A DNA stretch of 46,651 bases from NCBI GenBank assembly GCA_949502235.1, contig CATBDC010000027.1, forward strand, positions 1 to 46,651, read 5' to 3'. The notes under the pieces were generated by a model. That model saw nothing but the letters and a program-made list of their open reading frames with translations. It did no database searches and was not told the DNA's origin. Shown piece after piece: positions 1-16,783 of the stretch. The translations under genes and the position numbers were made by a program. Within the stretch, counting starts at the first letter, position 1, and each line of letters begins with the position of its first letter. The stretch is from an uncultured Lachnospiraceae bacterium (GTDB lineage: Bacteria; Bacillota; Clostridia; Lachnospirales; Lachnospiraceae).

Positions 1-574
1 ACAGGGTATCCTCCCCGTTAGCCAGGCTCTGGTCAAACCTCAGGGAACCTATTTTTTCTCTTTTCATAAGCTTTCCCCCGATTCCGGAAAGCCAGCTTAA
101 ATATTTACCGTGAAACCACTTTTCGGCTTCTCTCCCCTGTGCGCTTATCCGTCTGGGTCTTGTACCTTTTCCGTCACAGCCTTCTGGTATTTTTTCTATC
201 TTCTCCTCTGTAAGCCTTTTATAACCGCAGAATACCAGATCCGCCTTTTCCTCCTCTGCCAAAAGATACATTTCCTCAAGAAGCCTGGGGTGAATCACAT
301 CATCACTGTCAAGGAAAAAGACATATTCTCCTGATGCTAAGGAAAGTCCTTTGTTCCTTGCCGAAGAGACACCCTGGTTCTCCTGGCAGATCAGCCGTAT
401 CCTGCTGTCCGCAAGGCTCATCCTCCTGCAGATTTGCGGCCCTGCGTCCGCAGAGCCATCGTCAACCACAAGAATTTCAAGCTCCTCCATAGTCTGGCCG
501 AGTACAGATTCAAGGCACTGGCTGATAAACCTTTCCGAGTTGTACATAGGAATAATAACTGATATTTTCTTCAT
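1..574 (-). CDS. Glycosyltransferase family 2, 3' end beyond window
   Basis: About 191 residues are visible; the C-terminus lies outside the left edge. The N-terminus begins MKKISVIIPMYNSERFISQC, the standard GT-A fold opening, followed by VVDDGS and FLDSDD, the nucleotide-sugar and metal-binding aspartates of GT2 enzymes. The start at 574 is preceded by an AAGGGAACG ribosome binding site. It probably transfers a sugar from a nucleotide donor during surface-polysaccharide assembly at the cytoplasmic face of the membrane. It diverges from the DUF4832-type gene at 643, with 68 bases between the starts. Donor and acceptor cannot be told from the sequence. Confidence 0.88.
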   Translation of the reverse strand, partial: MKKISVIIPMYNSERFISQCLESVLGQTMEELEILVVDDGSADAGPQICRRMSLADSRIRLICQENQGVSSARNKGLSLASGEYVFFLDSDDVIHPRLLEEMYLLAEEEKADLVFCGYKRLTEEKIEKIPEGCDGKGTRPRRISAQGREAEKWFHGKYLSWLSGIGGKLMKREKIGSLRFDQSLANGEDTL

Positions 575-627
575 ATTCGTTCCCTTCATAAGATCATTTC
601 ATGATAGCTTTCCTGTCTGAAAGATGT

Positions 628-643
628 TATACTATAATTGCTA
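628..643 (+). promoter_or_regulatory. -10-like boxes abutting a start codon
   Basis: TATACT (628-633) and TATAAT (633-638) overlap, and the ATG of the downstream gene is at 643. No Shine-Dalgarno sequence precedes that ATG. A transcript from these boxes would start at or within a few bases of the ATG, implying a leaderless or nearly leaderless mRNA. No convincing -35 box was seen, so this is tentative. Confidence 0.35.
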
Positions 644-2064
644 TGAAAATCAAAAAACTTTTTTTCACTATTTCCTTTACAATTTGTATCTGCCTGATTG
701 CAGCCGTGTTATTTTTGTTCCCCTTGTTACGCTTTGCAGGCTATTGCCCAGATCCCTGCCCGGAATCTGCAGATGAATTAGACAACCCTTATATCGGCTG
801 GTATCAGATTAGGAGATACGAGCTTTCGGATACTGTTGCCTTTGATCTGGCACAGGTCAGTGAGCTTAACTCTGCGTCTGGCATGATTCTTCTGGAAATC
901 AACCTGAAAAACTATGCCGGCGGCCCAATAAGTGACAAGGGGCTTCTGCTTCTTGAAGAGCTTTTGGAAAGCTTCCGGTCTTCAGGCAGACAGCTAATAA
1001 TACGATTTCTCTACGACTGGGCCGGGGATGCATCCTCTACAGAGCCTAAAGATATTTCCATTATTCAGGGACACATGTCACAGACATCGGAAATTGTGAA
1101 CCAGTATTCTGACTGCGTGTATATCCTGCAGGGAATTTTTATCGGCTCATGGGGTGAAATGCACGGCTCGCGCTACGCAAATACAGAGGATATGCTTACC
1201 TTAATCCATCATCTGTCCTCTGTTACGGATCCTGAAATTTTTCTCGCCGTGCGCACCCCCTGGCAGTGGCGCCTTCTTTCGGGCTCCCCCTGGCCCCTGG
1301 ATGAAGCCGGGGCTTCTGACAGCTCCCTGGCCTCAAGGCTTGGACTCTTTAATGACGGCATGCTGGGATCTGATACAGATCTAAATACCTATGCCTCTGC
1401 TTCTTCCACTGTTTCAGATTCACCTTATGAGAAAAAAAGCCGTCAGGATGAGATTGCTTTCCAAAACCTTTTATGCAGCTATGTACCAAACGGGGGAGAG
1501 GTGGTCCTCCCCAATCCCTTTAATGATTTTACTTCTGCCTTAAAGGATCTTTCCGATACCCATGTATCTTATCTGAACCAGGACTATGATAAAGCCGTGC
1601 TGGATAAATGGCAGGCGGAAAGCTTCCATGGCAGCGGTCCCTTTCAGGGGATGAACGGTCTTGACTATATCTCCAGGCACCTGGGCTACCGGTATGTACT
1701 GCGGTCCTCAGAATGTACTGCCGGCCTTCCCTGGAAAAACAGGGCCGGGTTTTCTGTCACACTGGAGAATGTAGGCTTCTCTGGCTCCTACCGTCCTTTT
1801 GAGCTTTCCCTGACCTTAAGGGAGACCTCCACAGACAGGATATTCCAGATTCCCTTTGATGACCCCCGCCTTCCGGCACCCGGGGAAACCATAGAGCTGA
1901 AAGCCTCTGTACCAATACGCGATTACGCTACGGGAACCTATGAGGTCCGTCTTAAAATCAGTGATCCCGTATCAAAGGCTTTTGTCTTTCTGGCAAATGA
2001 GGGGGCGCAGGACGATCAGGGCTTTGTTATGGGAGAATTAACACTGGGTATATTCCCCCAGTAA
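643..2064 (+). CDS. DUF4832/DUF4874-type protein with N-terminal membrane anchor
   Basis: A 473-residue protein beginning MKIKKLFFTISFT, with one hydrophobic segment (residues ~5-32) that looks like a signal anchor, so the rest is likely extracytoplasmic. The start at 643 is preferred over 601 because it places the hydrophobic segment right after a short basic tail. The body resembles DUF4874 (barrel-like N-terminal part) plus DUF4832 (beta-rich C-terminal part). Conserved blocks include GWYQIRRYEL, QGIFIGSWGEMHGS (residues ~163-176), FLAVRTP, LFNDGMLGSDTDL and PNGGE. The acidic and aromatic residues in these blocks suggest a glycoside-hydrolase-like site, but no activity is established. It is a paralogue of the gene at 2038-3366 and converges on it with a 27-base 3' overlap. 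Confidence 0.8.
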   Translation: MKIKKLFFTISFTICICLIAAVLFLFPLLRFAGYCPDPCPESADELDNPYIGWYQIRRYELSDTVAFDLAQVSELNSASGMILLEINLKNYAGGPISDKGLLLLEELLESFRSSGRQLIIRFLYDWAGDASSTEPKDISIIQGHMSQTSEIVNQYSDCVYILQGIFIGSWGEMHGSRYANTEDMLTLIHHLSSVTDPEIFLAVRTPWQWRLLSGSPWPLDEAGASDSSLASRLGLFNDGMLGSDTDLNTYASASSTVSDSPYEKKSRQDEIAFQNLLCSYVPNGGEVVLPNPFNDFTSALKDLSDTHVSYLNQDYDKAVLDKWQAESFHGSGPFQGMNGLDYISRHLGYRYVLRSSECTAGLPWKNRAGFSVTLENVGFSGSYRPFELSLTLRETSTDRIFQIPFDDPRLPAPGETIELKASVPIRDYATGTYEVRLKISDPVSKAFVFLANEGAQDDQGFVMGELTLGIFPQ

Positions 2065-3366
2065 CACCCTGTCTTCTTCCCCCTGGTTGGCAAACCTTAA
2101 GGGCCTTTTGTCTGACTTCCTCTTAAGTTCGAGAAAAAGCCTGCAGCACTTGCTGTCTTCTCTCATTTTTGGCAATGCCGCCTGTATCTGCGTATATCTT
2201 CCGCATCTCCACAAGCAGGCGTCTGCCTCCAGCCGCTGTCTGCTCCTTTCTCCTTTTTCATCCTCTTCCGCAAGAAAACAGTCCGCTGGCTCCAGCAGAT
2301 TTGAAAAGCCTGTATTTTCTATGGAAATCCGAAGCAGCCCCCTATCGGTCAATTCAGCGTCCCGGACAACAAACCGGTATCCCAGACGGCCTCCGATATA
2401 GTCATAGCCGCTTAAGCCCTTCCAGCACCCCTCCTCTTTTATGATTTCCCTTTTCCAGCCCTCAAGCCTCTCTGGCTGGTAAATACTGTTAAGATAAGAA
2501 AGATGCATTTTACCCATAACCTCTGCCGCCTGCCCGTATCCGCCAAGCTCTAAGCCCTCAAGGGCCTCTCCTCCGTTAGGCGACAGCCCTGCATGAATGT
2601 CCTGCCACATAAGCTCATCTGCGGGGCGCCATTTTTCTGATGCTTTGGCTTCTCCCATAGAGAGCGCCCCATAGGTTCCAAGGTCTGTAGAGGAACCGAA
2701 AATACCGTCATTAAAAAGGGCAAGCCTGTCTCTAAGCTTCCCTTCTGTTCCGAAAGCCTCCTCAATCATCCGCCTTAAGGCCGGAGTCCGCACCGCAAGA
2801 TAGCACCTACCTTCCGTGACCTCATACAGGGTATGAACCAGTTCGCAGACGGCCTCTCTGCCAAGAAATCCGGATCCGTGCATCTCTCCCCAGCTTCCCA
2901 CAAAAATTCCCTGAATGACCAGAATATCTCCTGCAAATTCTCTAAGTATACTTCCAAGCTGCTCCATATGCCTTTTTACAAGAGAAATGTCTGATGGCTC
3001 ATGGACGGCGCCCCTTCCTTTTGTATCATAGGCGATCCTTAGAATCATCTGCTTATCTTTTTCACGGAAAAACTTAAAGATCTCTCCTATATGAAGGAGA
3101 GCTGTCCCCGAAAGCTCATGTGTACGGAACTCTCCTATATCGATCAGAACCAGCGCAAGCTTCTCTTTTTTGCAGGCCTCGTCAAGCCAGACCTCATTCT
3201 CCACAGGCATGCCTTCCTTCCGGGGCTCTGCCGTAAATGTATAGATATGATACCAGCCGCAGCCAGGATTATACAGAAGCCCGCCCTTCTCCTTAAAATG
3301 AGCTTTCCTAAATTTTCCCGATCCTTTAGATTTTATCCGCACTCCTAAGCCCCACCTCCGCATCAA
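2038..3366 (-). CDS. DUF4832/DUF4874-type protein, no obvious signal
   Basis: Up to 442 residues, paralogous to the convergent gene at 643-2064. The two share GWY near the N-terminus, QGIFVGSWGEMHGS (residues ~152-165), YLAVRTP, LFNDGIFGSSTDL, PNGGEAL, DYIGGRLGYRFV and a C-terminal FANQG. Unlike its partner it has no hydrophobic N-terminal segment. The nominal start overlaps the upstream GT2 gene by 41 bases; a GTG at 3342, preceded by GGAGG, is an alternative that removes eight residues and reduces the overlap. It appears to be the last gene of the long minus-strand glycan operon, so a role in glycan processing is inferred from context. If it is cytoplasmic, its substrate must be an intracellular precursor. 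Confidence 0.78.
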   Translation of the reverse strand: MMRRWGLGVRIKSKGSGKFRKAHFKEKGGLLYNPGCGWYHIYTFTAEPRKEGMPVENEVWLDEACKKEKLALVLIDIGEFRTHELSGTALLHIGEIFKFFREKDKQMILRIAYDTKGRGAVHEPSDISLVKRHMEQLGSILREFAGDILVIQGIFVGSWGEMHGSGFLGREAVCELVHTLYEVTEGRCYLAVRTPALRRMIEEAFGTEGKLRDRLALFNDGIFGSSTDLGTYGALSMGEAKASEKWRPADELMWQDIHAGLSPNGGEALEGLELGGYGQAAEVMGKMHLSYLNSIYQPERLEGWKREIIKEEGCWKGLSGYDYIGGRLGYRFVVRDAELTDRGLLRISIENTGFSNLLEPADCFLAEEDEKGERSRQRLEADACLWRCGRYTQIQAALPKMREDSKCCRLFLELKRKSDKRPLRFANQGEEDRVLLGEYTQC

Positions 3367-4105
3367 TCTTTAGAACCTTGATTCTGAATAATACAATCAG
3401 CACGCTGTACATTACCCGCAGCATATACCAGAAAGGCTTAAGCCCGGAATGCATACTTTTCCCTTCCGTTCTTGCATGCATCACCGCGGGGATCTCCACA
3501 ACGCGGAACTTGGCCAGCATCATCAGGATAATCATGTTGGCATCCGGATATTTATCGTCAAAGTGGTTATATTTGGAATAATATAAAAATGCCTTTCTGC
3601 TTAAGCCCTGAAGCCCGGTAGTAGGATCCGCAATTTTATTTCCCGTTGTCATGCGGATCAGAAAACGGAACATGGAATAAACTATCTTCTTCGGCAGGGA
3701 AATGGGAAAGTCCGCGCTTTCCTCCATAAACCTTGCCCCCAACACAATATCCGGGCACCTTCCCCCGCTGTCTGGCTCCTTAAGCTTTTTGTAAATAGCA
3801 GGGATATTACACACATCATGCTGGCCGTCCCCGTCCATCTGGATCACATATTGATATCCTCTTCTTACGGCGTACTTATATCCGGTCTGGAGAGCACAGC
3901 CATAGCCCATATTAAAGAGCTGGGAAAGCATAGGATAATTCATTTCCTTTACGATCCAGTTGGTAGAATCCGTGGAAGCGTCATTTACAACAAGAATATC
4001 TACACAATCCTTCATATTAAGCTGCTCTAGCTGTGTCAGCGTCCTCCTGATATTATTCCCTTCATTATAAGCCGGTATAATGATCAGCACCTCTTTTTTC
4101 TCCAT
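3326..4105 (-). CDS. Glycosyltransferase family 2, polyprenyl-phosphate sugar synthase-like
   Basis: 259 residues opening MEKKEVLIIIPAYNEGNNIR, then ILVVNDASTDST and QMDGDGQHD, giving the paired aspartates of a DPM1-like GT-A enzyme. FNMGYGCALQTGYKYA and DPTTGLQGLSRKAF are typical of dolichyl- or undecaprenyl-phosphate hexose synthases. It lacks the two C-terminal transmembrane helices of ArnC/GtrB-type enzymes; only a weakly hydrophobic stretch near residues 225-245 is present. Its ATG shares a base with the stop codon of the preceding GT4 (TAATG), implying translational coupling. It probably loads a sugar onto a lipid carrier for surface-glycan assembly. The sugar is unknown. Confidence 0.9.
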   Translation of the reverse strand: MEKKEVLIIIPAYNEGNNIRRTLTQLEQLNMKDCVDILVVNDASTDSTNWIVKEMNYPMLSQLFNMGYGCALQTGYKYAVRRGYQYVIQMDGDGQHDVCNIPAIYKKLKEPDSGGRCPDIVLGARFMEESADFPISLPKKIVYSMFRFLIRMTTGNKIADPTTGLQGLSRKAFLYYSKYNHFDDKYPDANMIILMMLAKFRVVEIPAVMHARTEGKSMHSGLKPFWYMLRVMYSVLIVLFRIKVLKIDAEVGLRSADKI

Positions 4106-5331
4106 TATCCTGCCTCCTCCTCTAAAAGCCTGAGAAGCTTTCCTATATCTTCTGCCTGATCCGTTATCTTTTGAGACGCGGCCTTCTTCATTCTCATCCT
4201 CTTTTCTTCGTCCAAAAGAAGCTCTTTAATGCTGGCCGCGATTCTTTCCGGAGTAAGAGGGCAGAGAATCCCGTCTTCTCCATTTATAATCTGCTCCCTG
4301 TTGCCGCTTGTATCAGAGGCAATCACCGCACAGCCCAGTGTCTGGGCCTCCTGAATGGCAATGCTCTTACCCTCAAATCTGGTTGCATGAACATACAGAT
4401 CCGTCTGGACATAATAGGGAAAAGGATTTGCCGCTGCCCCGGGAAGAAGGAAATCCTCCTCAAGCCCCGCGGCCGCGATTTTCTTCTCCAGCATGCGCCG
4501 TTTCTCTCCCTCTCCCAGCACATACCACCGGGCCAGAATCCCTTCCTCCTTAAGGAGCTTCATGGCATCTATGGCAATATCATAGGCCTTCTGGTATGTA
4601 AGCCTTCCCACTGTCAGAATCCTGGCGCCCTTATAGCTGTCCTGAAAGCCTCCCTTTTCTTTCGCCCGCTTCTTTATCATTTCCTGGTTAATCAGGTTGT
4701 GAAAAATATCCGTCTTATGGGCATACTCCGGGTAAACACAAAGAAAATGCTCCTTCACCTCGCGGGAAACCGTAAAGATCCGGTCAAATGCCTCCCAGCA
4801 GCCCCCATCCATCTCTCTTGTATATCCTGCGCTTTCATAATCAATATGTATAAATCCACATTTCTTTTCTGCATTCACATGATCCGCCACATAGTAAGCA
4901 GAAGCCCCTTCCAGATACGCAACAGCCAGATCAAACACATCCGGAAAGCGCTCCCCGCCGTCAGAGAGCATCCGCCATAAAAGCTTCTCCGGCCAGACCT
5001 TCCCATTCCTTTTCATGGACACAAAGTTCTGCATGATACCTTTAAGCTTCCTTAGGTATCCCCCGTTTCTTGCAAAGGCAGAGATTATGGTTCCCGCCAT
5101 GGCCCGTTTTCCTTTTCCTGTCATCACAGACTGGCCGTCAAACCGGGTATTTAAAAGCTTTACATGGGACGGAAGCTCTCCTATCATCTCTCCCTGTCCC
5201 ATAATTACATAAAGGAAAAGCTCATATTCCCTGCCCTCAAGCCTTCTTAGAAGCTCCATAAGAGCCGTTTCCGCACCTGCCCGCCCTAATGTATTAACGA
5301 CAAACAGTATCTTTTTCCTTTTCTCTTTCAT
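4105..5331 (-). CDS. Glycosyltransferase family 4
   Basis: About 408 residues. The start at 5331 (MKEKRKKILFVVNTLGRAGA) follows a GGAGG and is preferred over an in-frame ATG at 5370 inside the DUF2304 gene. A GT-B fold is indicated by the N-terminal GRAGAE loop, the mid-protein ILTVGRLTYQKAYDIAIDA stretch (start of the donor-binding domain) and the C-terminal FEGKSIAIQEAQTLG, which carries the EX7E-type glutamates. It likely adds one sugar in a retaining reaction at the cytoplasmic membrane face. It overlaps the upstream DUF2304 gene by 38 bases and abuts the downstream GT2, so the three form one translationally linked unit after pelG. Confidence 0.9.
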   Translation of the reverse strand: MKEKRKKILFVVNTLGRAGAETALMELLRRLEGREYELFLYVIMGQGEMIGELPSHVKLLNTRFDGQSVMTGKGKRAMAGTIISAFARNGGYLRKLKGIMQNFVSMKRNGKVWPEKLLWRMLSDGGERFPDVFDLAVAYLEGASAYYVADHVNAEKKCGFIHIDYESAGYTREMDGGCWEAFDRIFTVSREVKEHFLCVYPEYAHKTDIFHNLINQEMIKKRAKEKGGFQDSYKGARILTVGRLTYQKAYDIAIDAMKLLKEEGILARWYVLGEGEKRRMLEKKIAAAGLEEDFLLPGAAANPFPYYVQTDLYVHATRFEGKSIAIQEAQTLGCAVIASDTSGNREQIINGEDGILCPLTPERIAASIKELLLDEEKRMRMKKAASQKITDQAEDIGKLLRLLEEEAG

Positions 5332-5707
5332 CCTTTTCCTCCACAATCTGCCCAAGCCTTTCCAGTTCATGCATCATCCTCTCATTTTCCTGGTTAAGCA
5401 TGGTTATATGCATGGCCATCTCCCGGGTTTTTAGAAGAAGCTGTGAAATCATTACGCTGGAGCGGACCTCCTCTACCAGGAAAATAGCGCCTACGCCAAA
5501 AAATGCAAGACCTGTTCCCGTTGCCAGACGGTTTGTCCAGTCCGAAAACACCGGGACGATACCGATAAGAATCAGTACAATCCCCAAAAGCTCCCACATA
5601 ACCGTATAATTTACCGTAATCTTTTTATAGGAATGCATCAGAAAGCTGACAACCATAAGTGTAATTCCCACCAAAGCAATGATAATTCTCATAGTACTGC
5701 TGCTCAT
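5294..5707 (-). CDS. DUF2304-family small membrane protein
   Basis: 137 residues with three hydrophobic helices (about 6-24, 34-53 and 62-82) followed by a charged, coiled-coil-prone tail rich in Glu and Arg. The pattern SYKKITVNYTVMWELLGIVL matches the DUF2304 family, small inner-membrane proteins commonly found beside polyprenyl-phosphate glycosyltransferases. It lies between pelG and a GT4/GT2 pair, where a role as membrane partner or scaffold for the GT2 is plausible but unproven. The 3' end overlaps the next gene. Biochemical function is not known. Confidence 0.8.
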   Translation of the reverse strand: MSSSTMRIIIALVGITLMVVSFLMHSYKKITVNYTVMWELLGIVLILIGIVPVFSDWTNRLATGTGLAFFGVGAIFLVEEVRSSVMISQLLLKTREMAMHITMLNQENERMMHELERLGQIVEEKDEREKEKDTVCR

Positions 5708-5710
5708 TTT

Positions 5711-7174
5711 CTACATCTCCCCGCTTTCTCTTTTTTCGTACCTGTCATAGATCTTCACTGGAGGCCTGGTGCCCATTCCCGGCTTTAAGAGGGATCCCTC
5801 ACAGAAAATGTGCGCATCCAGATGCTTCTCCATATACCGCAGGCGGAAGTATGCCGCCGTAAAGCCCGAAAAGGCTCCCATCACAACACCCAGCCCGTAC
5901 CACAGCTCCGGAAGCCTTGCAGCAAAAATACTTCCTAAAAATGTGACCACGCAGAAGGTAAGGGATGTAAGCGTTGCTCCGGCAAGATCATTGAAATAAT
6001 ACAAAAATATTATTTCCGAATACATCAGAAACACGATAAAATAGCCTGCGGTAAGACATGGGTAAATTCTAAGCGTCAGGCTTGAAAACCCAAAGCGCGG
6101 CAAAATCACCACGCACAAAAGATACGCCACTGCCGTTATGATAAACTGTATGCGCACCAGGCTTAAAAGCTCTGATGAAAGCTGGCGGAACATCTCTGAC
6201 TTGGCAATGTCAATATCTGCTCCTCTTCCTCCTATCACGGCCTCAGAATAATTCTTATATTTATCATGGAAATACATTTCTACCCTCGTAATAAAAATAA
6301 TGGTTGCGGATATATTCGTAAACATAGCAAGGCAGGTAGCCATATCATAGGGCTGGTTACAGACAAAGGTCTTTACAAGTACCATCCGCATGTCTGTCGT
6401 CCAGAATACAAAATTATGAATATAAAGCCCCAGTATGTAGCAGAAATTCGCCACAACAAGCTGCCAGTATTTTTTAAAATACCGGAGCACGGACTTGTAA
6501 CGGTTGCTGTTTTGCACAAAGTAGCGCTTTACAACAGCGATCTCCAGAAAAGCAATCAGATAAAAGCCTGTCATAAGAGCAAAAAGCATACTCTCCCTGA
6601 TTCCCCAGCCCAGGATAAAGCGAAGGAAAAGGGAAAAGAAAAACGCCCACACCATCCCGATTGTATAAAACAAGGATATTTTCTGGTATGCCTTTGCAAT
6701 AGACAGATAAATCATGGAATAAAAAACAAGCACAAGCGCAATATAACCGCAATATCCGGTAAACACATAAAAGACATCCACCCTGCCCACAAAATGCTCC
6801 CACAGGCAGAAGGGGATCCCCAGAAGGCTGCTAAGGGACAGGTTCATAAGAAGGCCAAGGTAATAGCAGGGCCGGATATCCTGATATCTCTCCTCATAAA
6901 TAACGTCTGACATGTATTTTGACAGAACAGAATTAAAGGGCGCACAGGTTAGGAGTGAAAAAATAAATATATAAAGCACTGTACAGGAAAATAATTCTCT
7001 TTCCACAATCCCGAGGCTGGAAAACTCAAGGAAATGCCCCATGAAAAGGATATTAAAGATGATCACAAACATGGGCGTTACCGTAGACATGGAGCTGTAC
7101 CCAAAACCGATAAGATAGGTTGTGATCGTACTCTTTTCAAATATCTTTGTTAGCTTTGTACCTATACCTGCCAT
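5711..7174 (-). CDS. pelG: PelG-like polysaccharide transporter
   Basis: 487 residues with roughly twelve hydrophobic helices, and the N-terminal stretch TYLIGFGYSSMSTVTPMF typical of PelG, a member of the MOP/oligosaccharide flippase superfamily. PelG works with the glycosyltransferase PelF to move Pel polymer across the cytoplasmic membrane. The gene starts four bases after pelF ends, consistent with co-translation. The C-terminal tail is basic and probably cytoplasmic. Length agrees with known PelG proteins. Assignment is strengthened by the adjacent PelF and the upstream PelD/PelE-like genes. Confidence 0.92.
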   Translation of the reverse strand: MAGIGTKLTKIFEKSTITTYLIGFGYSSMSTVTPMFVIIFNILFMGHFLEFSSLGIVERELFSCTVLYIFIFSLLTCAPFNSVLSKYMSDVIYEERYQDIRPCYYLGLLMNLSLSSLLGIPFCLWEHFVGRVDVFYVFTGYCGYIALVLVFYSMIYLSIAKAYQKISLFYTIGMVWAFFFSLFLRFILGWGIRESMLFALMTGFYLIAFLEIAVVKRYFVQNSNRYKSVLRYFKKYWQLVVANFCYILGLYIHNFVFWTTDMRMVLVKTFVCNQPYDMATCLAMFTNISATIIFITRVEMYFHDKYKNYSEAVIGGRGADIDIAKSEMFRQLSSELLSLVRIQFIITAVAYLLCVVILPRFGFSSLTLRIYPCLTAGYFIVFLMYSEIIFLYYFNDLAGATLTSLTFCVVTFLGSIFAARLPELWYGLGVVMGAFSGFTAAYFRLRYMEKHLDAHIFCEGSLLKPGMGTRPPVKIYDRYEKRESGEM

Positions 7175-7178
7175 CTTT

Positions 7179-8609
7179 TTATTCCTCCCAGCTTAACCCT
7201 ATACTGTCCGAAAAATCCTTATAGATCCTCCGGTAGGTTTTCCGCATGTGCTCAATTCTGTAGCCGGCCATCACCCGCTTATAGCCGTTTTCTCCCATTT
7301 CAAGGCGTAAGGGCCTGTTGCGGGCCAGATCCACCATGGCCTGTGCGATCTCCTCCACACTCATAATATGTGTAATAATTCCCGCCTCTCCGAAATCATC
7401 GCTTTCTCCGAAAACCAGCCCCCGGCAGTTTCCCACATCCGTAGCAATCACGGGCTTATGGGCCGCATAACTCTCGAGGATGGTAAGGGGCTGCCCCTCG
7501 CTTAGGCTGGTGAGAATCGTCATATCCATCCTGCCCAGATAATCCCTGATATCAATTCTCCCTGTAAACACCACATCCTTAAGCCCCAGTGCCTCCACCT
7601 GTTCGAAACATTCCCTGGCATATTCCTCGTCCTCGTCCATAGGCCCCATAATCCACAGCTTTATCCCCGGCTCCCTTTCTTTCGCAAAGCTGAAGGCCTG
7701 AATCATGGTTTTTACATCCTTAATAGGCGTTACACGCAGTACAGCGCCGATGTTGACCATTCCCTCGTCCTCCTCCTTCTTTCCTGGAAGGTTCTTAAGC
7801 CTGTCTACATCTACCCCGTTAGGGGTTACCATGGTCTTTTCTTCCGGACAGCCAAGCTCAATCTGAAGCTCTCTTGCATATTCATAGAGGCTGGTTACAA
7901 TATCTGCCTTCTCATAAGCAAGCTTTGACATTTTTCTGAACTGCTCAATCCAGATATTCTTATAGACTCCCTGGACCCACTCTGCCCTAAGAAGCTCCTC
8001 CTCCCGCTCCCTCGTATAGATTCCGTGCTCCGAAATCATCAGCCGGCTGCCATACATGACCTTTGCCATGCTCCCTAATACTCCCGCATACCCGGTTGAG
8101 AGGCAGTGGTACAGATCCGCCTTCGGAAGCTCCATCTTAAGAGCAAAAAGAAGGGGCAGATACACAGAGCGCATTGTCCACAGAAAGTCTGAAAAAACAA
8201 GCTGGCTGTAATTCATGTCATAATATTCCCGCACAATGTTAAGGAAATCCTCTCCCATCAGAAGCCTGTCAAGGGAAACCGGAGTGTCCTGAAACAGCCT
8301 GAAAACTGCTTCCCACTCTATGCGCCGTCCCCGCACCAGACTCCGAAAGGCCTGATACTGCGATTTATTAAGCTTAAGCTTTTTTTGTCCCTTTTTATTC
8401 CAGTCAACATCCTCCAAGTAAAGCTCATGAACCTCTGTTACATTCTCCGGAAGCTCATAGGTAAACCTTCTGCTTAGGGAGCGATTGCTTATAATAGCTA
8501 AAATCACAAATTCAAGCTTCGGAAAAGACTTAATCAGGCCGTGCACCCAGCTTGACACACCGCCTGCTATATATGGATAGCATCCTTCTACTACCAGACA
8601 AACCCTCAC
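7179..8609 (-). CDS. pelF: PelF-like GT4 glycosyltransferase
   Basis: 476 residues. The N-terminus MRVCLVVEGCYPYIAGGVSS followed by WVHGLI is diagnostic for PelF, the cytosolic UDP-sugar-dependent glycosyltransferase that polymerises Pel. VTPNGVDVDRL marks the linker into the donor domain, and SEGQPLTILESYAA (residues ~368-381) carries the EX7E glutamates. It lies three bases after the DUF2194 gene and four bases before pelG. In characterised systems PelF needs PelD/PelE bound to c-di-GMP for activity; all those partners are encoded upstream here. Confidence in family is very high; the exact sugar is inferred from the family (GalNAc/GlcNAc). Confidence 0.94.
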   Translation of the reverse strand: MRVCLVVEGCYPYIAGGVSSWVHGLIKSFPKLEFVILAIISNRSLSRRFTYELPENVTEVHELYLEDVDWNKKGQKKLKLNKSQYQAFRSLVRGRRIEWEAVFRLFQDTPVSLDRLLMGEDFLNIVREYYDMNYSQLVFSDFLWTMRSVYLPLLFALKMELPKADLYHCLSTGYAGVLGSMAKVMYGSRLMISEHGIYTREREEELLRAEWVQGVYKNIWIEQFRKMSKLAYEKADIVTSLYEYARELQIELGCPEEKTMVTPNGVDVDRLKNLPGKKEEDEGMVNIGAVLRVTPIKDVKTMIQAFSFAKEREPGIKLWIMGPMDEDEEYARECFEQVEALGLKDVVFTGRIDIRDYLGRMDMTILTSLSEGQPLTILESYAAHKPVIATDVGNCRGLVFGESDDFGEAGIITHIMSVEEIAQAMVDLARNRPLRLEMGENGYKRVMAGYRIEHMRKTYRRIYKDFSDSIGLSWEE

Positions 8610-8612
8610 CTT

Positions 8613-10508
8613 TTATCTCCTTTCTGAAGGCTGATAATAATATCTTTCATCCCCGGGCTTCAAGAGAATCCTGATCTTGCTTTCCTCTGCCTCAATCAGA
8701 TAAGCGCCCTCCTCAAGCTCTTTAAAGCTTCCGCCCTTCACCTCTTTAATATCCCTGCCGTAAATTCGGAGCACAAACCATACCGTGCCTTCTGTCCCCT
8801 CTTTTTGAATCTCTATAGTGTCTCCTCTCTTTATGTCTGTAAAATTAAGAGCCAGAAAATTACGGATGTGCTCATCGCACTCTGATATGGCAGTCCCCTC
8901 AAAATGTTCATAATTCTTTCCGAAAATATTTATATTTCTTATAATATTTTTAGACAGCTCATCCCATGTGTCCTTCTCTCCCTCCGGATAAACGGCGCGG
9001 CTCATGTCGCAGGTGAGACTTAGATATCCAAGCGCCGTCTCTACACATCTCATCCTGAAATCACTGCGGAAGGTATAGTTAAGTCCGTCTCCGGATCCGC
9101 TCTGCCTTGTAACATGCTCTGAAAGATACCCGATAAGGCTTATAGCTTCCTCGTCATAGGGATTTACCACCGTCCTGACAGCAGACAGCATGTCACTTTT
9201 AAGAGCTGCCTGTATATCTGCGGCCTCCATGTTTCCGGCGTAACAGGAAGAAAATTCATAGTCTGCGGCTGCCTCCTCCATAAACTGCTGATCCTCCTTA
9301 AGCTTTCCAGCTACGGGCATACCAGACACATTTTCTAAAGACAGCCCTGTCTCCGCAGACTTTTCATGGAAGATCTTCATATAATACTGAAGGGTCTCCG
9401 GGTTTGGAGAATTGTCATCCATGTAGTCATACTGAGGCGCCAGCATACACGTAAGTCCCGCCGGATAATCCTGGAGGGCCGTTACGACACCAGGCCATAT
9501 GTTTTCCTGCTCAAGAAGTCTTAAGGAGCGTCCGTAAATATCTTCTAACTCCTCCCTGTTCTCGTCAGCCATGCCCGGATAATTGGCAAGTACCAGATTC
9601 TGGGCATTTATAACCGGATAGATCTCATAGGAATCCATCTCAGCCGATATGGCAGAAAGGATGCCAAGCCCTGCCGTGTCCTCCATATATCCGCCGTTTA
9701 CGGCGAACACATATGCCGGCCCAAAGCTTTTTCTCCATATCACCACAGGGTAATCCTCTTTCTCTATGCTTTCATCTTCCGGAATTCCCTTCATATATAC
9801 CTTTGTGCCGGAGGTGAGGCTGTACCACGGAAATGTAAGCTCCATATCCTGATACTTCTCATCCTCTTCCTCCTCCGCCTGGTAGATGACCTCCCCGCCT
9901 AAAAGAAAGCCACCATACAGGTGGATACCATTCACAGCCGGCTCCAGCTCTTCCACCCTTCGGATTCCTAAAAGCTCGCGGACCTTTTTATTTCCTCTTA
10001 TGACAGACACATCAGGAAGATTCGCAAAAACAAGGCTGGTTCCCTTCTCTATACATTCTGTCAGAAATTCAACCTCCTCCGTCTGTTCCCAATGAATACT
10101 GCCGGAATCAATGACCATCATCTCAAGAGAGGCCATATCGATTTTTGCCCTGCCATACTCTTCAAGAGATAAAAAGCCTGTGATGCCCCGCTTTGTGCAG
10201 ACCGCCCATTCGCGGACAATCTCCTTAAGGCTTCCCTCTCTGCCGATAAAGACAATTCCGTTTTTTCCAGCCTGCGCCTGCGTTTCCTCTTCCTCCTTCA
10301 AGGTTCCCTCATGGGATGCCCCGTCCTTTTCCTGGCTGTCAGGCACAAACATGCTGACCTTTGAAGGATAGTTTTCTGCCGTACCGGTAATATATGGATT
10401 TATCTCATAGTCATTCCATTCATCTTTCAAATTGTTCAAAAACATACACAGGAAGAATACAACAGACATTAATATAGTAATAATGAAAAAATTCCGGCGT
10501 GATACCAT
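8613..10508 (-). CDS. DUF2194/PelA-like exported polysaccharide-modifying protein
   Basis: About 631 residues. I prefer ATG 10508, preceded by AGGTGG, over an in-frame GTG at 10520. One N-terminal hydrophobic segment (RRNFFIITILMSVVFFLCMF) anchors it, and the rest should be outside the membrane. The first ~330 residues look Rossmann-like and may sense or bind rather than catalyse. The region around PAGLTCMLAPQYDYMDDNSP resembles the metal-binding start of a carbohydrate-esterase-4-like deacetylase. Its place between PelE-like and PelF genes corresponds to the PelA deacetylase slot of Gram-positive pel operons. No glycoside-hydrolase domain comparable to PelA of Pseudomonas is apparent. The family call DUF2194 is from memory and moderately confident. 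Confidence 0.72.
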   Translation of the reverse strand: MVSRRNFFIITILMSVVFFLCMFLNNLKDEWNDYEINPYITGTAENYPSKVSMFVPDSQEKDGASHEGTLKEEEETQAQAGKNGIVFIGREGSLKEIVREWAVCTKRGITGFLSLEEYGRAKIDMASLEMMVIDSGSIHWEQTEEVEFLTECIEKGTSLVFANLPDVSVIRGNKKVRELLGIRRVEELEPAVNGIHLYGGFLLGGEVIYQAEEEEDEKYQDMELTFPWYSLTSGTKVYMKGIPEDESIEKEDYPVVIWRKSFGPAYVFAVNGGYMEDTAGLGILSAISAEMDSYEIYPVINAQNLVLANYPGMADENREELEDIYGRSLRLLEQENIWPGVVTALQDYPAGLTCMLAPQYDYMDDNSPNPETLQYYMKIFHEKSAETGLSLENVSGMPVAGKLKEDQQFMEEAAADYEFSSCYAGNMEAADIQAALKSDMLSAVRTVVNPYDEEAISLIGYLSEHVTRQSGSGDGLNYTFRSDFRMRCVETALGYLSLTCDMSRAVYPEGEKDTWDELSKNIIRNINIFGKNYEHFEGTAISECDEHIRNFLALNFTDIKRGDTIEIQKEGTEGTVWFVLRIYGRDIKEVKGGSFKELEEGAYLIEAEESKIRILLKPGDERYYYQPSERR

Positions 10509-10520
10509 TCTTTTCCCCAC

Positions 10521-12695
10521 CTAACCTTCCTTTTTCTCTTCATATCCGTTATATCCGTAGTCAATCGCGAAATTATACGGGCTGTATCCATTCTGCCGGA
10601 TACGGTAGCATATGAAGTTATCTGTTTCATAATAGACCTCCATCTCGTTTGGATACAGCTCCTTAAATGCCTGCGCCCAGTAATACATATGGGACATTGT
10701 AACCCACCTTTCGTCTCCTATATAGGGCAGGATCCCCGGTTTATCTGAAACCGGCTCTTCTGCTCCTTTGGCAGATACCCTTCGCTCTGGCTTTTCTGTA
10801 TTGATATAATCCCGGTACAGAAGCGGTATCTTTTCGATAAAAAAATACACGGTATCTGTGGGTATGATAATCGATGTATCCTCATCTACAGAGCGCATAT
10901 CCTTTAAAAACTTAATGGTCTCATAATGATATGCATTCTTACAGCCTCCCATCATCTGCCGCTCATCATTGGCAGAGCAGATCGTCCAAGCCTCATTTTT
11001 GTTTTCACGGATAATATTGCTTAGGCAGATGACAGCCTCATTTGTCTCATAAGCGCTCACTGTTACAGGGGAGCGCATCCCCGTATAAGCCGTCAAGACG
11101 CAGGCTGTGGCCAGTGCGCCCATAGAGCACAGATTAAGAGCCCTCTCCTTTCTGAATAAAAGGTATATAACCCCGTCTGCGCACAGGCTCCACACAGCCG
11201 CGATTCCGTATCCAAGATATACGGAATAGCGGGAAACCTCCAGAAGCTGGACAAGGCCCAGCTGGGCCGAGGCCTGCAGAATGGCCATAGCCGCCATAAA
11301 AATACTAAGAGAGACCAGAACTCCCGCGTACTCCGACCTTCGAAGGAGAAACCATAAAAGTCCCAGCACGAAAAGCACGCCTATGCTTCCAACCATAACC
11401 TGGGCTGTCTTCATATCATATGCCACATAGTATTCCATTCTGTCGATCACTGCCTCAAGGGCAGTAAGCTCTTCTTTTTTTTCGCCGGAAGAACCGGCCG
11501 CCTTCGGGGCCTCCGGGGATGACTTAAGCTGGGACATCCCCCATTTTAAGGATGCCTGCAGAGGAGTACCCATAGCAAATGCCGCCCCCAGAGGCAGCAC
11601 CGCAAGCAGTATCCCAAGAATCCCTGCCGCTGTTATTTTCTTTAAATAGCTAAAGCGGAAAACACGGAAACAAAATCCTGCTCCGATTGCCGCGCAGAAA
11701 ATCCCCGCAATAATTGTATCGTAGAAATGAACCGTAAGCGTCAGTGAAACGCTCACAGCAAAAAATCCCAGGTATCGTTTCGTATCCTCTGCCCGGGCGT
11801 CTCTTTTCTGCTGCAGAAATGCCATGGCAAAATATGCTGCAGGCAGAATAAACGCCATGCCGAACTCCTGGGGGAGGGTCGCATAATACCGGATATATGT
11901 GTACTCATAAAATCTGTTCGAAACAATATAGATGATCATTCCGATATACGGAGCATACCGTGTCCTGCACACACTCTTAAGAAATGCCAGCAGCATGAAA
12001 TGAACCACAAATGCCTGAATCACATAGAAGAGCCGCAGAATCACATATACAGGAACCGCAAATACGGTATGGACGTAATATAAAAGACAATGCATCCCAA
12101 AAGGGTACACCCCGTCAACAAAAATATGGTTGTTTTCCATGGCATTGATCCAGTAATTATGCAGCACCATATCAGAAGCACAATAGCCATAGACATTTAC
12201 CACGCTGCTCCCGTACATATAGAGTAAAAGCACTGTAACGCCAAGGGTAAGAAGGATATCTCCGCCGTGCGCGCCCAGACAGCCTCTTCTCTTCTTCCCG
12301 GACGCTTTAAGCGCCTGCCCGAGGCTTCTCCTCATACGGAGAAAAAGGGTCTTCCTTCCTGTCTCGCCTCCCAAAATAAGCAGAAACCGGCCGAGCCCCT
12401 TCTCCAGACGCATAAGAAAAGAACCCCTGTACTTTATATAAGCCGATACCAGAAAAGGCGCCAGCGTCCCCAGAACCAGCGTAAACCAGCAGGATATATG
12501 TAAGAGTTCAAGAAGGTATACCAGATTTATAATATAAAAATTACCCGCCAGAAAATAAGCCATGAACCTTACAGGCGCAGTGCCAAAGCCGGCAAGCCTC
12601 TTTCGCAGATACAGCCATGGCAGCACAAGGGTCACGCCGAAATAAGCCGCCCCAATCCCTGTCACCTGCAGAATGGAAAGTATCGCCATTGACAT
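10521..12695 (-). CDS. Large polytopic membrane protein in pel operon, possible GT-C type
   Basis: 724 residues with about twelve to fourteen hydrophobic helices in the first ~520 residues and a mainly soluble C-terminal ~190 residues. Helix-loop features such as CASDMVLHNYWINAMENNHI and VDGVYPFGMH recall membrane glycosyltransferases of the GT-C fold (DUF6541-like), where an early loop carries a catalytic acidic residue. The start at 12695 is preceded by AGGAGG. It lies two bases after the PelE-like gene and directly before the DUF2194 gene, inside the operon. Canonical pel operons as I know them do not include such a protein. A lipid-linked-sugar-dependent decoration of the polymer is possible but is inference only. 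Confidence 0.68.
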   Translation of the reverse strand: MSMAILSILQVTGIGAAYFGVTLVLPWLYLRKRLAGFGTAPVRFMAYFLAGNFYIINLVYLLELLHISCWFTLVLGTLAPFLVSAYIKYRGSFLMRLEKGLGRFLLILGGETGRKTLFLRMRRSLGQALKASGKKRRGCLGAHGGDILLTLGVTVLLLYMYGSSVVNVYGYCASDMVLHNYWINAMENNHIFVDGVYPFGMHCLLYYVHTVFAVPVYVILRLFYVIQAFVVHFMLLAFLKSVCRTRYAPYIGMIIYIVSNRFYEYTYIRYYATLPQEFGMAFILPAAYFAMAFLQQKRDARAEDTKRYLGFFAVSVSLTLTVHFYDTIIAGIFCAAIGAGFCFRVFRFSYLKKITAAGILGILLAVLPLGAAFAMGTPLQASLKWGMSQLKSSPEAPKAAGSSGEKKEELTALEAVIDRMEYYVAYDMKTAQVMVGSIGVLFVLGLLWFLLRRSEYAGVLVSLSIFMAAMAILQASAQLGLVQLLEVSRYSVYLGYGIAAVWSLCADGVIYLLFRKERALNLCSMGALATACVLTAYTGMRSPVTVSAYETNEAVICLSNIIRENKNEAWTICSANDERQMMGGCKNAYHYETIKFLKDMRSVDEDTSIIIPTDTVYFFIEKIPLLYRDYINTEKPERRVSAKGAEEPVSDKPGILPYIGDERWVTMSHMYYWAQAFKELYPNEMEVYYETDNFICYRIRQNGYSPYNFAIDYGYNGYEEKKEG

Positions 12696-12697
12696 TG

Positions 12698-13672
12698 TTA
12701 TTGCCTCCTTACACTGAAAATACGGATCAGCTCCAATGTTTCACTATCTATCACAACATCTGACCTCTTAAGAGCAGCCAGAGTATCAAAAAAGGCCTCT
12801 CTGTCCTGCTTCGCAAAATAAAGCTTCAGCTTACAGGTAAATGCCGGAAGCTCCTCCGGATATCTTTCTGCCAGACGCAGACACCATTTTTCACACCCTT
12901 CATAATCCTTAAGCTCAAGCAGGCGCAGACAGACTGCCTCCCGCCTTTCAAGGGTAAGCCGCACGGCGTCCTTTTCATAAAGCAGCTCTGCTGTCTCTGC
13001 CATACTGTTCACAAATTTGCGCTGCTCATGCTCGGAAAAAATATGCTGCTTCAGAATATTGTCCATATAATCAATCAGCATCTCCTCACAATCTGTCTGT
13101 GTATCATCCTCTTCCTGAATCTTAAGGAGAAGCTTCTGCACATAGATGCGGAATTTGTTAAGCTCATCCGATAAAACAGCGGCGGCATAGTGGGAGGTCT
13201 CCGAATCCTCACTCTCCAGTGCAAGGGTGATGGATGCCAGGGAATTTCTGATATCCTTGCTCATCACATTCATAAGCACTGTCCTTAAATCCTTCTTTTC
13301 ATTTACAAGAATAGCTTCCTCCAGAGGGATAATGTTGCGTTCCACTTCCTCGTCCGCCTTCCTGTTGGTCTTCACACGCTTCTTACTGAAGACCACGTCT
13401 GTCAGATTTGCCTCCCTCCAGAAAACAAACAGGTAAAACAGATGGCCCATGAAAAAAAACAATGGAACAATAACAGGACAAAGTATCATGACAATAAACC
13501 GAATCAGGTAGGTTCTCCTGTTGTCATATAAAACCTCCTCTGCCGCCCCGTCCGCAGCTGCCATCCGTGCCGGAACCACCACAAAAATTCCTGCCAGAAG
13601 ATAAATCAGGGCAGCAAGAAAATTTACGGCAAGCATCATGAGAAATGCAAATTCATCCCCTGCAAGGGTCAT
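12698..13672 (-). CDS. pelE: PelE-like membrane protein
   Basis: 324 residues with N-terminal hydrophobic helices (about 10-35 and 55-85), then a helical cytoplasmic region with repeated Leu/Ala/Glu patterns such as EAVCLRLLELKDYEGCEKWC that resemble TPR units. PelE in characterised systems is a membrane-TPR protein that joins PelD and PelF. The segment IIPLEEAILVNEKKDLRTVL matches my memory of PelE proteins. Its start overlaps the end of the PelD-like gene by four bases (ATGA). Identification relies on domain layout plus operon position, since primary-sequence conservation is weak. Confidence 0.78.
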   Translation of the reverse strand: MTLAGDEFAFLMMLAVNFLAALIYLLAGIFVVVPARMAAADGAAEEVLYDNRRTYLIRFIVMILCPVIVPLFFFMGHLFYLFVFWREANLTDVVFSKKRVKTNRKADEEVERNIIPLEEAILVNEKKDLRTVLMNVMSKDIRNSLASITLALESEDSETSHYAAAVLSDELNKFRIYVQKLLLKIQEEDDTQTDCEEMLIDYMDNILKQHIFSEHEQRKFVNSMAETAELLYEKDAVRLTLERREAVCLRLLELKDYEGCEKWCLRLAERYPEELPAFTCKLKLYFAKQDREAFFDTLAALKRSDVVIDSETLELIRIFSVRRQ

Positions 13673-15870
13673 AGTACCGCCTCCTCATCAATCCGGCTCT
13701 CATAGCCCAGAGCCCTGAACCTCTCTATAATAACACCTGCATTTTCCTTATTTGTATTAGACAAAAGCACATACAGCCTTCCCTCCTTAAAGATTCCAAG
13801 ATAATCTGTCTGGCGTATGGTGCCGCCCAGAGCCTTGGCCACATGCTCATAATTTTTATCCTCTGTCAGTACTTCCATCAGTACATACTCGGTAAGCCCC
13901 TTATCTCTGGCGTCAAAAAAGGCCTTTGCCAGCTGCGTAAATGCCTCCTCTCCCAGCACACTGGTTCCTTCCACATACCGCTGGTTCCGGATAGCATCCA
14001 GGTAGCGGTTGGCACGTACTACCGCATTTTGGATCAGATATCCTACAATCGTCAGCCGGTTTGCCTCCCCCAGCGTCATGCGCTCCCACGGAACTCCCCA
14101 GAGCATCAGAATCAGCTGCATCTCATCCTCTGAATAAACAGCGCTTGCCATCATAGGCATCTTATCCACCATATTCCTGTTGACATATACCCGGCGCTCC
14201 TTAATCTCACTATAGAGCTCATCCATGTCTGTATACTTTATAGAATTTCCAAGCTTTCTCGCCTCCGGGGAGGTAGCTGAAAACAATCTGGCATAGTCGC
14301 TGTTGGCAATATTGTATACTGCCACATCCTTGCAATCCATCAGCCTTGACAGCACCTGAGCCGCATAGAACAAAACCTCCTCCGGCCCGTACTGCTCCAG
14401 GGATGAGGAAACCTCGTAGATCTTCCCTAAGCTCTCCCTGTGATTAACTACCTGGGACTCAAAATTATGCTTAAGCTTCACATTGCTTTCATTAATATCC
14501 TCAATATCCTTAAGCTGCCCATTTAAATACTGAACCCTGCACCTTCCTTCATTTCTGATAAAATGAAGCTGATCCTTCATATAGCCCACAACAAGTCCCA
14601 CAATAAAAAGCTGCGCCATCCAGACATATGTATTATAATCAAGCAGCACTTCAAAGCCCGTCCTGCCGTCCGCCTGCCCAAAGCAATACCCTGCCGATGC
14701 CAGAAAAGCAGAAAAAACAGCCTGCTGCTGCCCGTGGACAACCGCAAAAAGCAGCACATACAAAAGATAAATGTCAAGCCTTGCCAGAAATTTGCTGTCC
14801 GCCGCCGCGCTGCTTAGGAAAACTGCCCCGGCAAAGCATACCAATGCTTCTATGAACGGAAAAAGAGCTTTTAAAATTCTGCGCACATGGTTCCACAGCC
14901 TTACAGCAGCCCCGCCTCCTTCGTCCTCCTCGGAAATAAAGGAATTACTGTGCTGCTTCATAAACTCCGCAGTCTGTTTTACTCCCTTGTCATAGTCATT
15001 GAAAATTTCATAGGCAAACTCACCTTTATATCTGCTGCAGTCCAGAACCAGGCGCCTGCCTGCCCCTGCTGTACTGTCAACAATAGAAATATCAGACCCC
15101 ATTCCCTCCTTTATCTTCTCTGCAAGCTGTTTCTCATTCACCGGCTCCATAGAGGAAATATTATAAACTGACTGCCTAAGCGCCTCCCCGCAAAGCACTC
15201 TGTAGGCCAGCTCCACCGCATCGTTCAGGTGGATCATGGAGAAAATTCGTCTTTCATTTACCGAGATCTTCCCTGTTTTTAATGCCTCAAGGCACATGCA
15301 AAAGCATGGGTTATCCTCCTGCTTTCCCTTCCGGGGCACCCAGTATATCTGGTCAAATCTTAGGATAACTGTATCCGTTCCCTGGGTCTTTCGGAAGTTT
15401 GCGCAGGCCTCCTCCCCCTGGGCAAGGGCCATTGCTTTAAAGCCTTTAGGGGACAGGGGCGTATCTTCCCTGATATTATCCATATGCACGCCGCCATATA
15501 CCTCCTGGGAAGAAAAATATATAAACCTTGCGTTTTTAAGAACACTAAAAGCAGACAGAATGTTCACAAGCCCCGCCACATAACGCACCGACTCCTGCCT
15601 CGCATCTGTCTCCCAGTCATAATTCGTATCATATGCCCCCGTAAACACGACAACATCCGGCCTGGCGCTCTCTAAAATGTCCTTGATGCTTCCGCTGTCA
15701 TAGGGGAAATTATATTTTTCAAATACCGGTTTATAGGAAAAGCGATTGTCTCTCTGCCCCGTCAAAAGATATACCCGATGTCCATTCTTATTAAGCTTGC
15801 TGATTATAGCGTCCATCAGCACTCCGCCGCCGCCCGCCAATAACACAACCATCTTTTTCACCACTTCCAT
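13669..15870 (-). CDS. pelD: PelD-like c-di-GMP receptor with N-terminal SDR-like domain
   Basis: Up to 733 residues. Residues ~7-310 are an NAD-dependent epimerase/SDR-like Rossmann domain (GGGG near residue 13, FIYFSSQEVYGG, LRFDQIYW). Residues ~335-445 contain about four transmembrane helices. A coiled coil and a GAF-like domain follow (~450-600), ending with a degenerate GGDEF-like domain. RQTD at residues 686-689 fits the RxxD inhibitory site that binds c-di-GMP in PelD. The YxxxK of active SDR enzymes is replaced by FKAMA (residues 144-148), so that domain is probably not an oxidoreductase. It is the first gene of the operon. No Shine-Dalgarno precedes 15870; the ATG at 15852, after GGAAGTGG, is an alternative. 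Confidence 0.85.
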   Translation of the reverse strand: MEVVKKMVVLLAGGGGVLMDAIISKLNKNGHRVYLLTGQRDNRFSYKPVFEKYNFPYDSGSIKDILESARPDVVVFTGAYDTNYDWETDARQESVRYVAGLVNILSAFSVLKNARFIYFSSQEVYGGVHMDNIREDTPLSPKGFKAMALAQGEEACANFRKTQGTDTVILRFDQIYWVPRKGKQEDNPCFCMCLEALKTGKISVNERRIFSMIHLNDAVELAYRVLCGEALRQSVYNISSMEPVNEKQLAEKIKEGMGSDISIVDSTAGAGRRLVLDCSRYKGEFAYEIFNDYDKGVKQTAEFMKQHSNSFISEEDEGGGAAVRLWNHVRRILKALFPFIEALVCFAGAVFLSSAAADSKFLARLDIYLLYVLLFAVVHGQQQAVFSAFLASAGYCFGQADGRTGFEVLLDYNTYVWMAQLFIVGLVVGYMKDQLHFIRNEGRCRVQYLNGQLKDIEDINESNVKLKHNFESQVVNHRESLGKIYEVSSSLEQYGPEEVLFYAAQVLSRLMDCKDVAVYNIANSDYARLFSATSPEARKLGNSIKYTDMDELYSEIKERRVYVNRNMVDKMPMMASAVYSEDEMQLILMLWGVPWERMTLGEANRLTIVGYLIQNAVVRANRYLDAIRNQRYVEGTSVLGEEAFTQLAKAFFDARDKGLTEYVLMEVLTEDKNYEHVAKALGGTIRQTDYLGIFKEGRLYVLLSNTNKENAGVIIERFRALGYESRIDEEAVL
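13804..13815 (-). other. RxxD I-site codons of PelD-like receptor
   Basis: These four codons read Arg-Gln-Thr-Asp, in the sequence GGTIRQTDYLGIF. In PelD an RxxD motif of the degenerate GGDEF domain makes direct contacts with c-di-GMP. Its presence suggests the operon product is controlled post-translationally by c-di-GMP. Confidence 0.7.
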
Positions 15871-15990: not shown

Positions 15991-16033
15991 TAAAAAAAGA
16001 AAAAAAAGGCTTTCCGTCACCGGAAAGCCTTTT
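15991..16033 (-). terminator. Rho-independent terminator after rpmF
   Basis: A perfect 13-base stem, AAAAGGCTTTCCG (16004-16016) with its complement at 16021-16033, has a four-base loop. In the minus direction it is followed by a U-rich run (15991-16003 are nearly all A on the plus strand). It lies 12 bases past the rpmF stop and separates rpmF from the pel operon. Confidence 0.92.
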
Positions 16034-16045
16034 CTCATCTTCAAA

Positions 16046-16225: not shown

Positions 16226-16228
16226 AGG

Positions 16229-16756: not shown

Positions 16757-16783
16757 ATTATTACTCCTATTCACACCTAAATA

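Follow-up and report, generated by a model that had tools for sequence, protein, structure and literature searches.

Do the genes that follow pelG in a Lachnospiraceae pel operon decorate the Pel polymer, or do they build a second polymer under the same cyclic di-GMP (c-di-GMP) control? Both options were raised in an original prediction for a contig of an uncultured Lachnospiraceae bacterium (GenBank assembly GCA_949502235.1, contig CATBDC010000027.1; the whole stretch of 46,651 nucleotides is referred to here as the window). We think it reasonably probable that the operon in question belongs to a lineage of pel loci in gut Clostridia that makes a c-di-GMP-controlled Pel-type polymer, and that has gained extracellular glycosylation and lost deacetylation by PelA. 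This reading is based on the gene set, on the GT-C glycosyltransferase (GT) fold predicted for a membrane protein, M, on motif loss in PelA, on the motifs of PelF and PelD, and on recurrence across genomes; we infer the donor, the sugars, the acceptor, the flippase, and the role of a PelA that has lost its active site (called dead PelA below).

Organization of the operon

Ten co-directional genes tile the minus strand of the window without a gap from 15870 to 2038, in the order pelD, pelE, M, pelA, pelF, pelG, J (a DUF2304 gene), GT4, GT2, and H1 (a DUF4832 gene), with junction spacings from pelD to H1 of -4, 2, 0, 3, 4, 3, -77, -1, and -41 bases. Open reading frames (ORFs) and family matches confirm the gene set, order, and common strand that had been claimed, and spacings of -77 to 4 bases bear out the claimed absence of gaps. 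The interval originally assigned to the operon, 3326..15870, misses the DUF4832 gene at 2038-3366, and two features had been overlooked: the key 724-amino-acid (aa) membrane protein M between pelE and pelA (10521-12695) and the loss of the PelA active site. The D-E-A-F-G order of the Gram-positive pel operon is present, interrupted by M after E (pelE being named by position), and CotH, VTC, and DUF4956, the published set after pelG, are absent from the window. A sequence scan of window positions 1-20000 placed no terminator-like site inside the 3-base pelG/DUF2304 junction and found 17 such sites overall, no excess over a shuffle mean of 18.7 (standard deviation, 3.6). M, J, GT4, and GT2 are called the cassette below.

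M, the J-GT2 pair, and a candidate flippase

M had no Pfam match at an E value of 0.01. Its structure as predicted by AlphaFold2 (predicted local distance difference test, 90.9; predicted template modeling score, 0.90) matched GT-C enzymes in Foldseek and VIA searches, with the protein oligosaccharyltransferases AglB, STT3, and PglB among the closest folds, and D175 is conserved in 97/97 rows. The model suggests that M is a GT-C membrane transferase with a conserved acidic residue in a loop predicted to be external. A profile search of solved structures returned only two calcium-pump matches for M (E values, 0.045 and 0.16); the fold points to GT-C, and the idea of a pump was rejected. In the class-wide draw described below, strong M copies occur only with pel genes (4/4 genomes, one of them with a broken pel locus without pelG), and distant, weak copies occur without pel. 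One stretch (L175, genome G295; 8392-14061) carries pelD-E-M-A, then a 144-aa pelF fragment and a helix-turn-helix/LuxR gene, with no pelG match in the genome; by its gene content it is a broken cassette-type operon.

J (5294..5707; PF10066, 34.8 bits), a GacJ/WpsB-type small membrane partner, is the single DUF2304 match in the whole genome; DUF2304 proteins are described as GacJ-type activators of polyprenyl-phosphate-sugar GT2 enzymes (PMC8327497, PMC8035078, PMC10821137). GT2 (3326..4105) resembles polyprenyl-phosphate-sugar synthases: its best curated match is the polyprenyl-phospho-N-acetylgalactosamine (GalNAc) synthase PpgS (75.7 bits; cut-off, 370), and among solved structures it comes closest to dolichol-phosphate mannose synthase (PDB 5mlz; E value, 5e-8). 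As judged by sequence, J and GT2 are a GacJ/GacI-type pair. They are fused in L023, L027, L033, and L061, and in L024, J, GT2, and H form one 844-aa ORF. The GT4 enzyme (4105..5370) is nearest to PglJ, at 88 bits far below the cut-off of 500. With a putative GT2-plus-small-partner pair and a predicted GT-C enzyme, the window has the sequence-level marks of a multi-component transmembrane glycosylation system.

DUF2304 and GT relatives were sought with rebuilt profiles or single-sequence searches. In a genome of another family (L176, genome G049), two M homologues flank GT2 and DUF2304 genes, followed by ATP-grasp, deacetylase, and MurJ-like genes, and no pel profile match was found in the stretch; as judged from this arrangement without pel, the M/GT2/DUF2304 trio appears to be a portable module. 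L178, another distant case, carries genes for M, GT2, and a MurJ-like protein, with no DUF2304 gene found.

The window contig (C27) ends inside a GT2 gene (2..589, minus strand). Comparison with a related locus (L002) suggests that this is probably the 5' part of a GT2-pyruvyltransferase gene and that C27 probably continues into contig C12. The start of C12 carries part of a pyruvyltransferase gene, an FrhB-like gene, a PglK-like ABC transporter, and a GT2 gene; the transporter matches PglK over residues 67-590, nearly its full length, although P-glycoprotein chains give slightly higher scores for shorter matches. Among loci of which 8.5 kb or more is visible, ABC- or Wzx-like genes follow pelG in 19/34 cassette loci versus 0/14 CotH loci, and they occur anywhere in the stretch in 23/34 versus 1/14. 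One GtrA match lies elsewhere in the genome.

Conserved pel genes and the loss of PelA motifs

PelD (13669..15870) combines an N-terminal short-chain dehydrogenase/reductase (SDR)/epimerase-like domain (Pfam Epimerase, 55 bits), a membrane region, and a C-terminal degenerate GGDEF domain with an RxxD motif (R686-D689). The motif is present in 86/86 aligned cassette rows, the window's included, and in 30/33 other rows; the c-di-GMP control that had been predicted finds support in this motif and goes no further than the motif level. The SDR-PelD fusion has already been described for Gram-positive pel (PMC7112168), and the genome has six GGDEF matches. The pelE-like gene (12698..13672; 324 aa) has no Pfam match, and its homologues stand at the same place across loci. 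PelF, the GT4 polymerase (7179..8609; NF038011, 377.7 bits; cut-off, 100), carries from residue 371 the EX7E motif that is conserved in 137/137 rows, and in this 137-row alignment cassette PelFs differ from the others at only two mild class-diagnostic columns, K317/R and I388/V. PelG, the polymer exporter (5711..7174; PF16933, 476.5 bits), is the single match in the whole genome.

The pelA(DA) homologue (DUF2194; 8613..10520) encodes a putative pseudo-deacetylase without the DD, HxxxH, and HPDD motifs. When ORFs shorter than 480 aa are excluded, the deacetylase motifs are intact in 0/93 cassette PelA ORFs (85 distinct), compared with 29/39 ORFs elsewhere. In a comparison that covered structure entries released up to April 2026, the window PelA matched the folds of Pseudomonas PelA (PDB 9cgy) and Agd3 (PDB 6nwz); Bacillus cereus PelADA (PDB 9zau) was not among the fold matches listed, from which we conclude nothing. 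Alignment-free motif counts, together with the fold shared with PelA, rule out that the apparent motif loss comes from misalignment. Two pelA ORFs stand side by side in L138, L140, L144, and L162, and in the three loci where both are comparable, the deacetylase motifs are intact in one ORF and lost from its neighbor. The polymer Pel is described as consisting of galactosamine and GalNAc (PMC9135694), and deacetylation is held to be necessary for B. cereus Pel biofilms (PMC13254593). We do not class the window locus as a producer of Pel as described, that is, partially deacetylated alpha-1,4-GalNAc.

H1 (2038..3366), a DUF4874/DUF4832 glycoside hydrolase-like protein, has no N-terminal membrane segment that could be seen; a second such protein, H2 (601..2064, plus strand), has an N-terminal hydrophobic segment, and its gene converges on the operon end. 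The DUF4832 gene had been counted as part of a new cassette, which does not hold: such genes are already known as pel accessories (PMC7112168, PMC12345266), and SIR_1591, the DUF4832 protein of the Streptococcus intermedius pel operon, is reported as an active hydrolase (PMC12345266). In an alignment of 90 DUF4832 proteins, glutamates 186 and 300 (H2 numbering) are invariant, and the cassette proteins are without an acidic/aromatic loop that is conserved in CotH-type relatives. The N-terminal membrane segment is missing from 39/70 cassette-type copies, and a predicted cytoplasmic polymer hydrolase is a puzzle. Since PelF EX7E, PelD RxxD, and the DUF4832 glutamates are conserved, the polymerase and the switch look unchanged, and it is the modification of the polymer that appears to have changed.

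Recurrence across genomes

A PelG search gave matches in 72 of 397 family genomes, 19 of 391 class genomes, and 17 of 398 phylum genomes, and 68, 14, and 9 stretches, respectively, were fetched. Genomes with fragmentary pelG (G479, G596, and G1033) and weak sub-cut-off matches were left out; L056, L057, L059, and L062 were dropped as short, as were the short stretches L001 and L063-L080, which were refetched at greater length where over the cut-off. Loci with at least 6.5 kb before and at least 5 kb after pelG were called complete, which left out 5/15 class loci, 14/71 family loci, and 8/57 loci of a named set; the latter was selected for similarity to the window PelG and overlaps the family draw in eight loci, and its counts are not prevalences.

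Both M and GT2 were found in 33 of the 57 complete Lachnospiraceae loci (71 in all), neither in 21, M without GT2 in 2, and GT2 without M in 1; these 33 loci bear out the co-occurrence of the cassette with pelFG that had been named as the supporting test. The 10 complete loci of the class set (15 in all) have M, J, and GT2 in 3 and none of them in 7. Nine phylum stretches, two of them short (L181 and L187), gave no M or J match and one 28-bit GT2 match. This recurrence rules out a curiosity confined to the window.

Gene order varies among the 42 cassette loci of the deduplicated draw: 14 have the window's order, D-E-M-A-F-G-J-GT4-GT2-H, while M lies between two H genes in 7, H lies between M and A in 3, and J precedes D, with GT2 behind M, in 5. 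No close relative of the window GT4 was found in the J-first loci, and J, GT2, and M therefore look like the core. The cassette and the CotH/VTC/DUF4956 set are mutually exclusive except in 2/98 cassette loci (L060 and L110, with the same PelG), and in terms of gene content the cassette replaces the published set. The exceptional locus, seen twice, combines the CotH/VTC/DUF4956 set with H, GT4, and M but has neither J nor GT2, and is perhaps an intermediate or a recombinant. Among CotH-type loci, L134, L136, L138, L140, and L144 encode a PelG-CotH fusion in one ORF of 1080-1103 aa, a direct link of the exporter to CotH, a kinase-like protein whose role here is unexplained. Some genomes have more than one pel locus of the cassette lineage: NZ_RHJS01000002.1 has two different ones (L007 and L028), and the metagenome-assembled genome CATLCV has three (L004, L034, and L038). 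Culturable commensals with the locus include Schaedlerella arabinosiphila DSM 106076 (L007 and L028) and Fusicatenibacter saccharivorans (L021).

Evolutionary order and points against the proposal

A PelG tree of 81 rows, built by a quick method, places the 42 cassette loci in one clade together with L114, in which pelE is directly followed by pelG and no readable pelA or pelF was found in the stretch. Three CotH-bearing loci with dead PelA (L082, L092, and L160, the last on a long branch) lie just outside the clade, which suggests that the deacetylase was lost before the cassette was gained.

Several observations weigh against our proposal. The cassette has about one origin on the PelG tree; cassette versus dead PelA yields 1 independent pair and no test, and the two together seem close to one evolutionary event. 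M versus GT2/J yields 4 pairs, of which on average 1.7 go the same way, 0.1 go the other way, and 2.1 show no difference (median p, 0.5). M loci lack GT2 in 2/35 and J in 4/35 cases in the family draw, and in the named set, 4/49 complete loci have M without GT2. Dead PelA is found already in CotH-bearing loci: in L160, where the entire CotH set is present and the 6.8 kb past pelG hold no cassette, and, with less context, in L082 and L092, where CotH adjoins pelG and the contigs end less than 0.9 kb past pelG. Because of these three loci, we consider it unlikely that the gain of the cassette brought about the loss of the deacetylase. The best curated matches of GT2 and GT4 are far below their cut-offs, the window contains no flippase gene, and 15/34 cassette loci show none after pelG. 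Finally, Whitfield et al. leave open, in the text cited, whether Roseburia-type loci make Pel at all (PMC7112168).

Proposed mechanism and alternatives

If the operon works as we propose, c-di-GMP at the PelD RxxD site would turn PelF on, and PelG would export the chain. GT2 and its DUF2304 partner would load a sugar onto undecaprenyl phosphate (Und-P) on the cytoplasmic side; GT4 would extend the glycan, in some loci with further enzymes such as the nearby GT2-pyruvyltransferase; and a flippase would turn it over, a PglK-like or Wzx-like protein being encoded close by in many loci. M would move the glycan onto the emerging polymer, dead PelA would remain as a carbohydrate-binding scaffold, and the DUF4832 hydrolases would trim the product. 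We tentatively go one step further and suggest a second chemical form of Pel in gut Clostridia, in which the cationic polymer deacetylated by PelA would be replaced by a chain that is decorated extracellularly with Und-P-derived, perhaps pyruvylated, oligosaccharides, PelA being a pseudo-enzyme scaffold.

It is conceivable, if doubtful, that the PelF/PelG backbone is unrelated to Pel, in which case "decorated Pel" would be a misnomer and the decoration mechanism would still be valid. Deacetylase loss apparently before cassette gain fits such a backbone, as does the missing acidic/aromatic loop of the hydrolases; however, EX7E is retained in every PelF aligned, only two mild columns separate the cassette PelFs from the rest, and both hydrolase glutamates are invariant.

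We consider it unlikely that the cassette builds an Und-P-linked glycan that M transfers to another acceptor, such as a cell-wall polymer, a teichoic acid, or a surface protein, and that has only its regulation in common with Pel. The oligosaccharyltransferases among the closest folds to M, the PglJ match of GT4, and the nearly full-length PglK match of the C12 transporter are consistent with such an acceptor, but strong M copies in the class-wide draw keep to pel genes, many loci have M between pelE and pelA, and in one relative J and GT2 are fused to a protein of the Pel-linked DUF4832 family.

It is improbable that the extra genes make a separate second polymer with shared control: although pyruvyltransferase, FrhB-like, ABC, and GT2 genes lie near the cassette in several loci and published Roseburia loci stand in larger capsule- or teichoic-acid-like clusters (PMC7112168), the genome's four Bac_transf (PF02397) matches and one Wzy_C (PF04932) match are on contigs C22, C6, C42, and C40, and neither C27 nor C12 has one (the search for initiators and polymerases covered these two families), and GT2/DUF2304 pairs are described as making Und-P intermediates, though in lactococci these feed a polymer (PMC10821137). 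Between the two options first raised, decoration of Pel is the better supported, by the GT-C fold of M and the GacJ/GacI-type J-GT2 pair.

Relation to known systems

Gram-positive pel, the SDR-PelD fusion, DUF4832 accessories with hydrolase activity, and Roseburia clusters of uncertain product are already known (PMC7112168, PMC12345266). The B. cereus ATCC 10987 pelDEADAFG operon and the clostridial and streptococcal pel loci of Whitfield et al. (2020; PMC7112168) share with the window the pelD-E-A-F-G order, the SDR-PelD fusion, and the DUF4832 accessory; unlike these loci, the window has J/GT4/GT2/M in place of CotH/VTC/DUF4956, and its PelA has lost the active-site motifs. The Roseburia pel locus of the same paper, which has extra GT1 and GT2 genes with pel in a larger cluster, possibly belongs to the same lineage; the passages cited leave its function open and state no GT-C, DUF2304 pairing, or dead PelA. 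The GacI/GacJ/GacK/GacL and WpsA/WpsB...WpsJ systems (PMC8035078, PMC10821137, PMC8327497) likewise use a GT2 with a DUF2304-type partner to make an Und-P-sugar, followed by a GT-C transferase. Their acceptor is reported as rhamnan, whereas the module here is part of a pel operon, which is synthase-dependent and has a c-di-GMP-type PelD, and about 130 residues precede the GT-C core of M. S. intermedius SIR_1591 (PMC12345266) shares the placement of DUF4832 in a pel operon, but here there are two copies, one without a membrane segment. B. cereus PelADA (PMC13254593; PDB 9zau) and Pseudomonas PelA (9cgy) share the operon position and, in the case of 9cgy, the fold with the window PelA, from which the catalytic Asp-Asp, HxxxH, and HPDD are absent.

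In the literature covered, which did not extend to supplements, we found neither a GT-C identity for M, nor GacIJ-type pairing in pel loci, nor dead PelA. Searches for the pel operon with Lachnospiraceae and for a PelA pseudoenzyme found nothing; PelF with GT-C gave, in the texts retrieved, only type IV pili work, DUF2304 with glycosyltransferase gave rhamnose cell-wall polymers, and Pel polysaccharide with Roseburia gave only Whitfield et al. and phage work.

Surroundings and implications

Upstream in the direction of the operon lie phosphotransacetylase, acetate kinase, and YceD genes and then, ahead of pelD, a strong terminator-like hairpin (16001..16036, minus strand, running 16036-16001), with 16 pairs followed by a T run, the longest hairpin listed on that strand. 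Scans of the whole window with Rfam (gathering scores) and for tRNAs were empty. Window positions 34369-44666, with AAA_10 (VirB4-like), lysozyme-NlpC/P60, sigma-like regulator, and Tn916-type integrase genes, are probably an integrative conjugative element.

The remark on Roseburia-type loci that was left open becomes directly testable, with J plus GT2, M, and dead PelA as clean gene sets for biochemistry. If Pel does have the second chemical form suggested above, the product of these loci would be a branched Pel regulated by c-di-GMP, and a synthase-dependent exopolysaccharide would join the acceptors of the GT-C class. With the polymerase, the exporter, and the c-di-GMP motif kept, the deacetylase motifs lost, and a lipid-linked glycosylation kit gained across a large lineage, the matrix chemistry of gut commensals would differ from the model.

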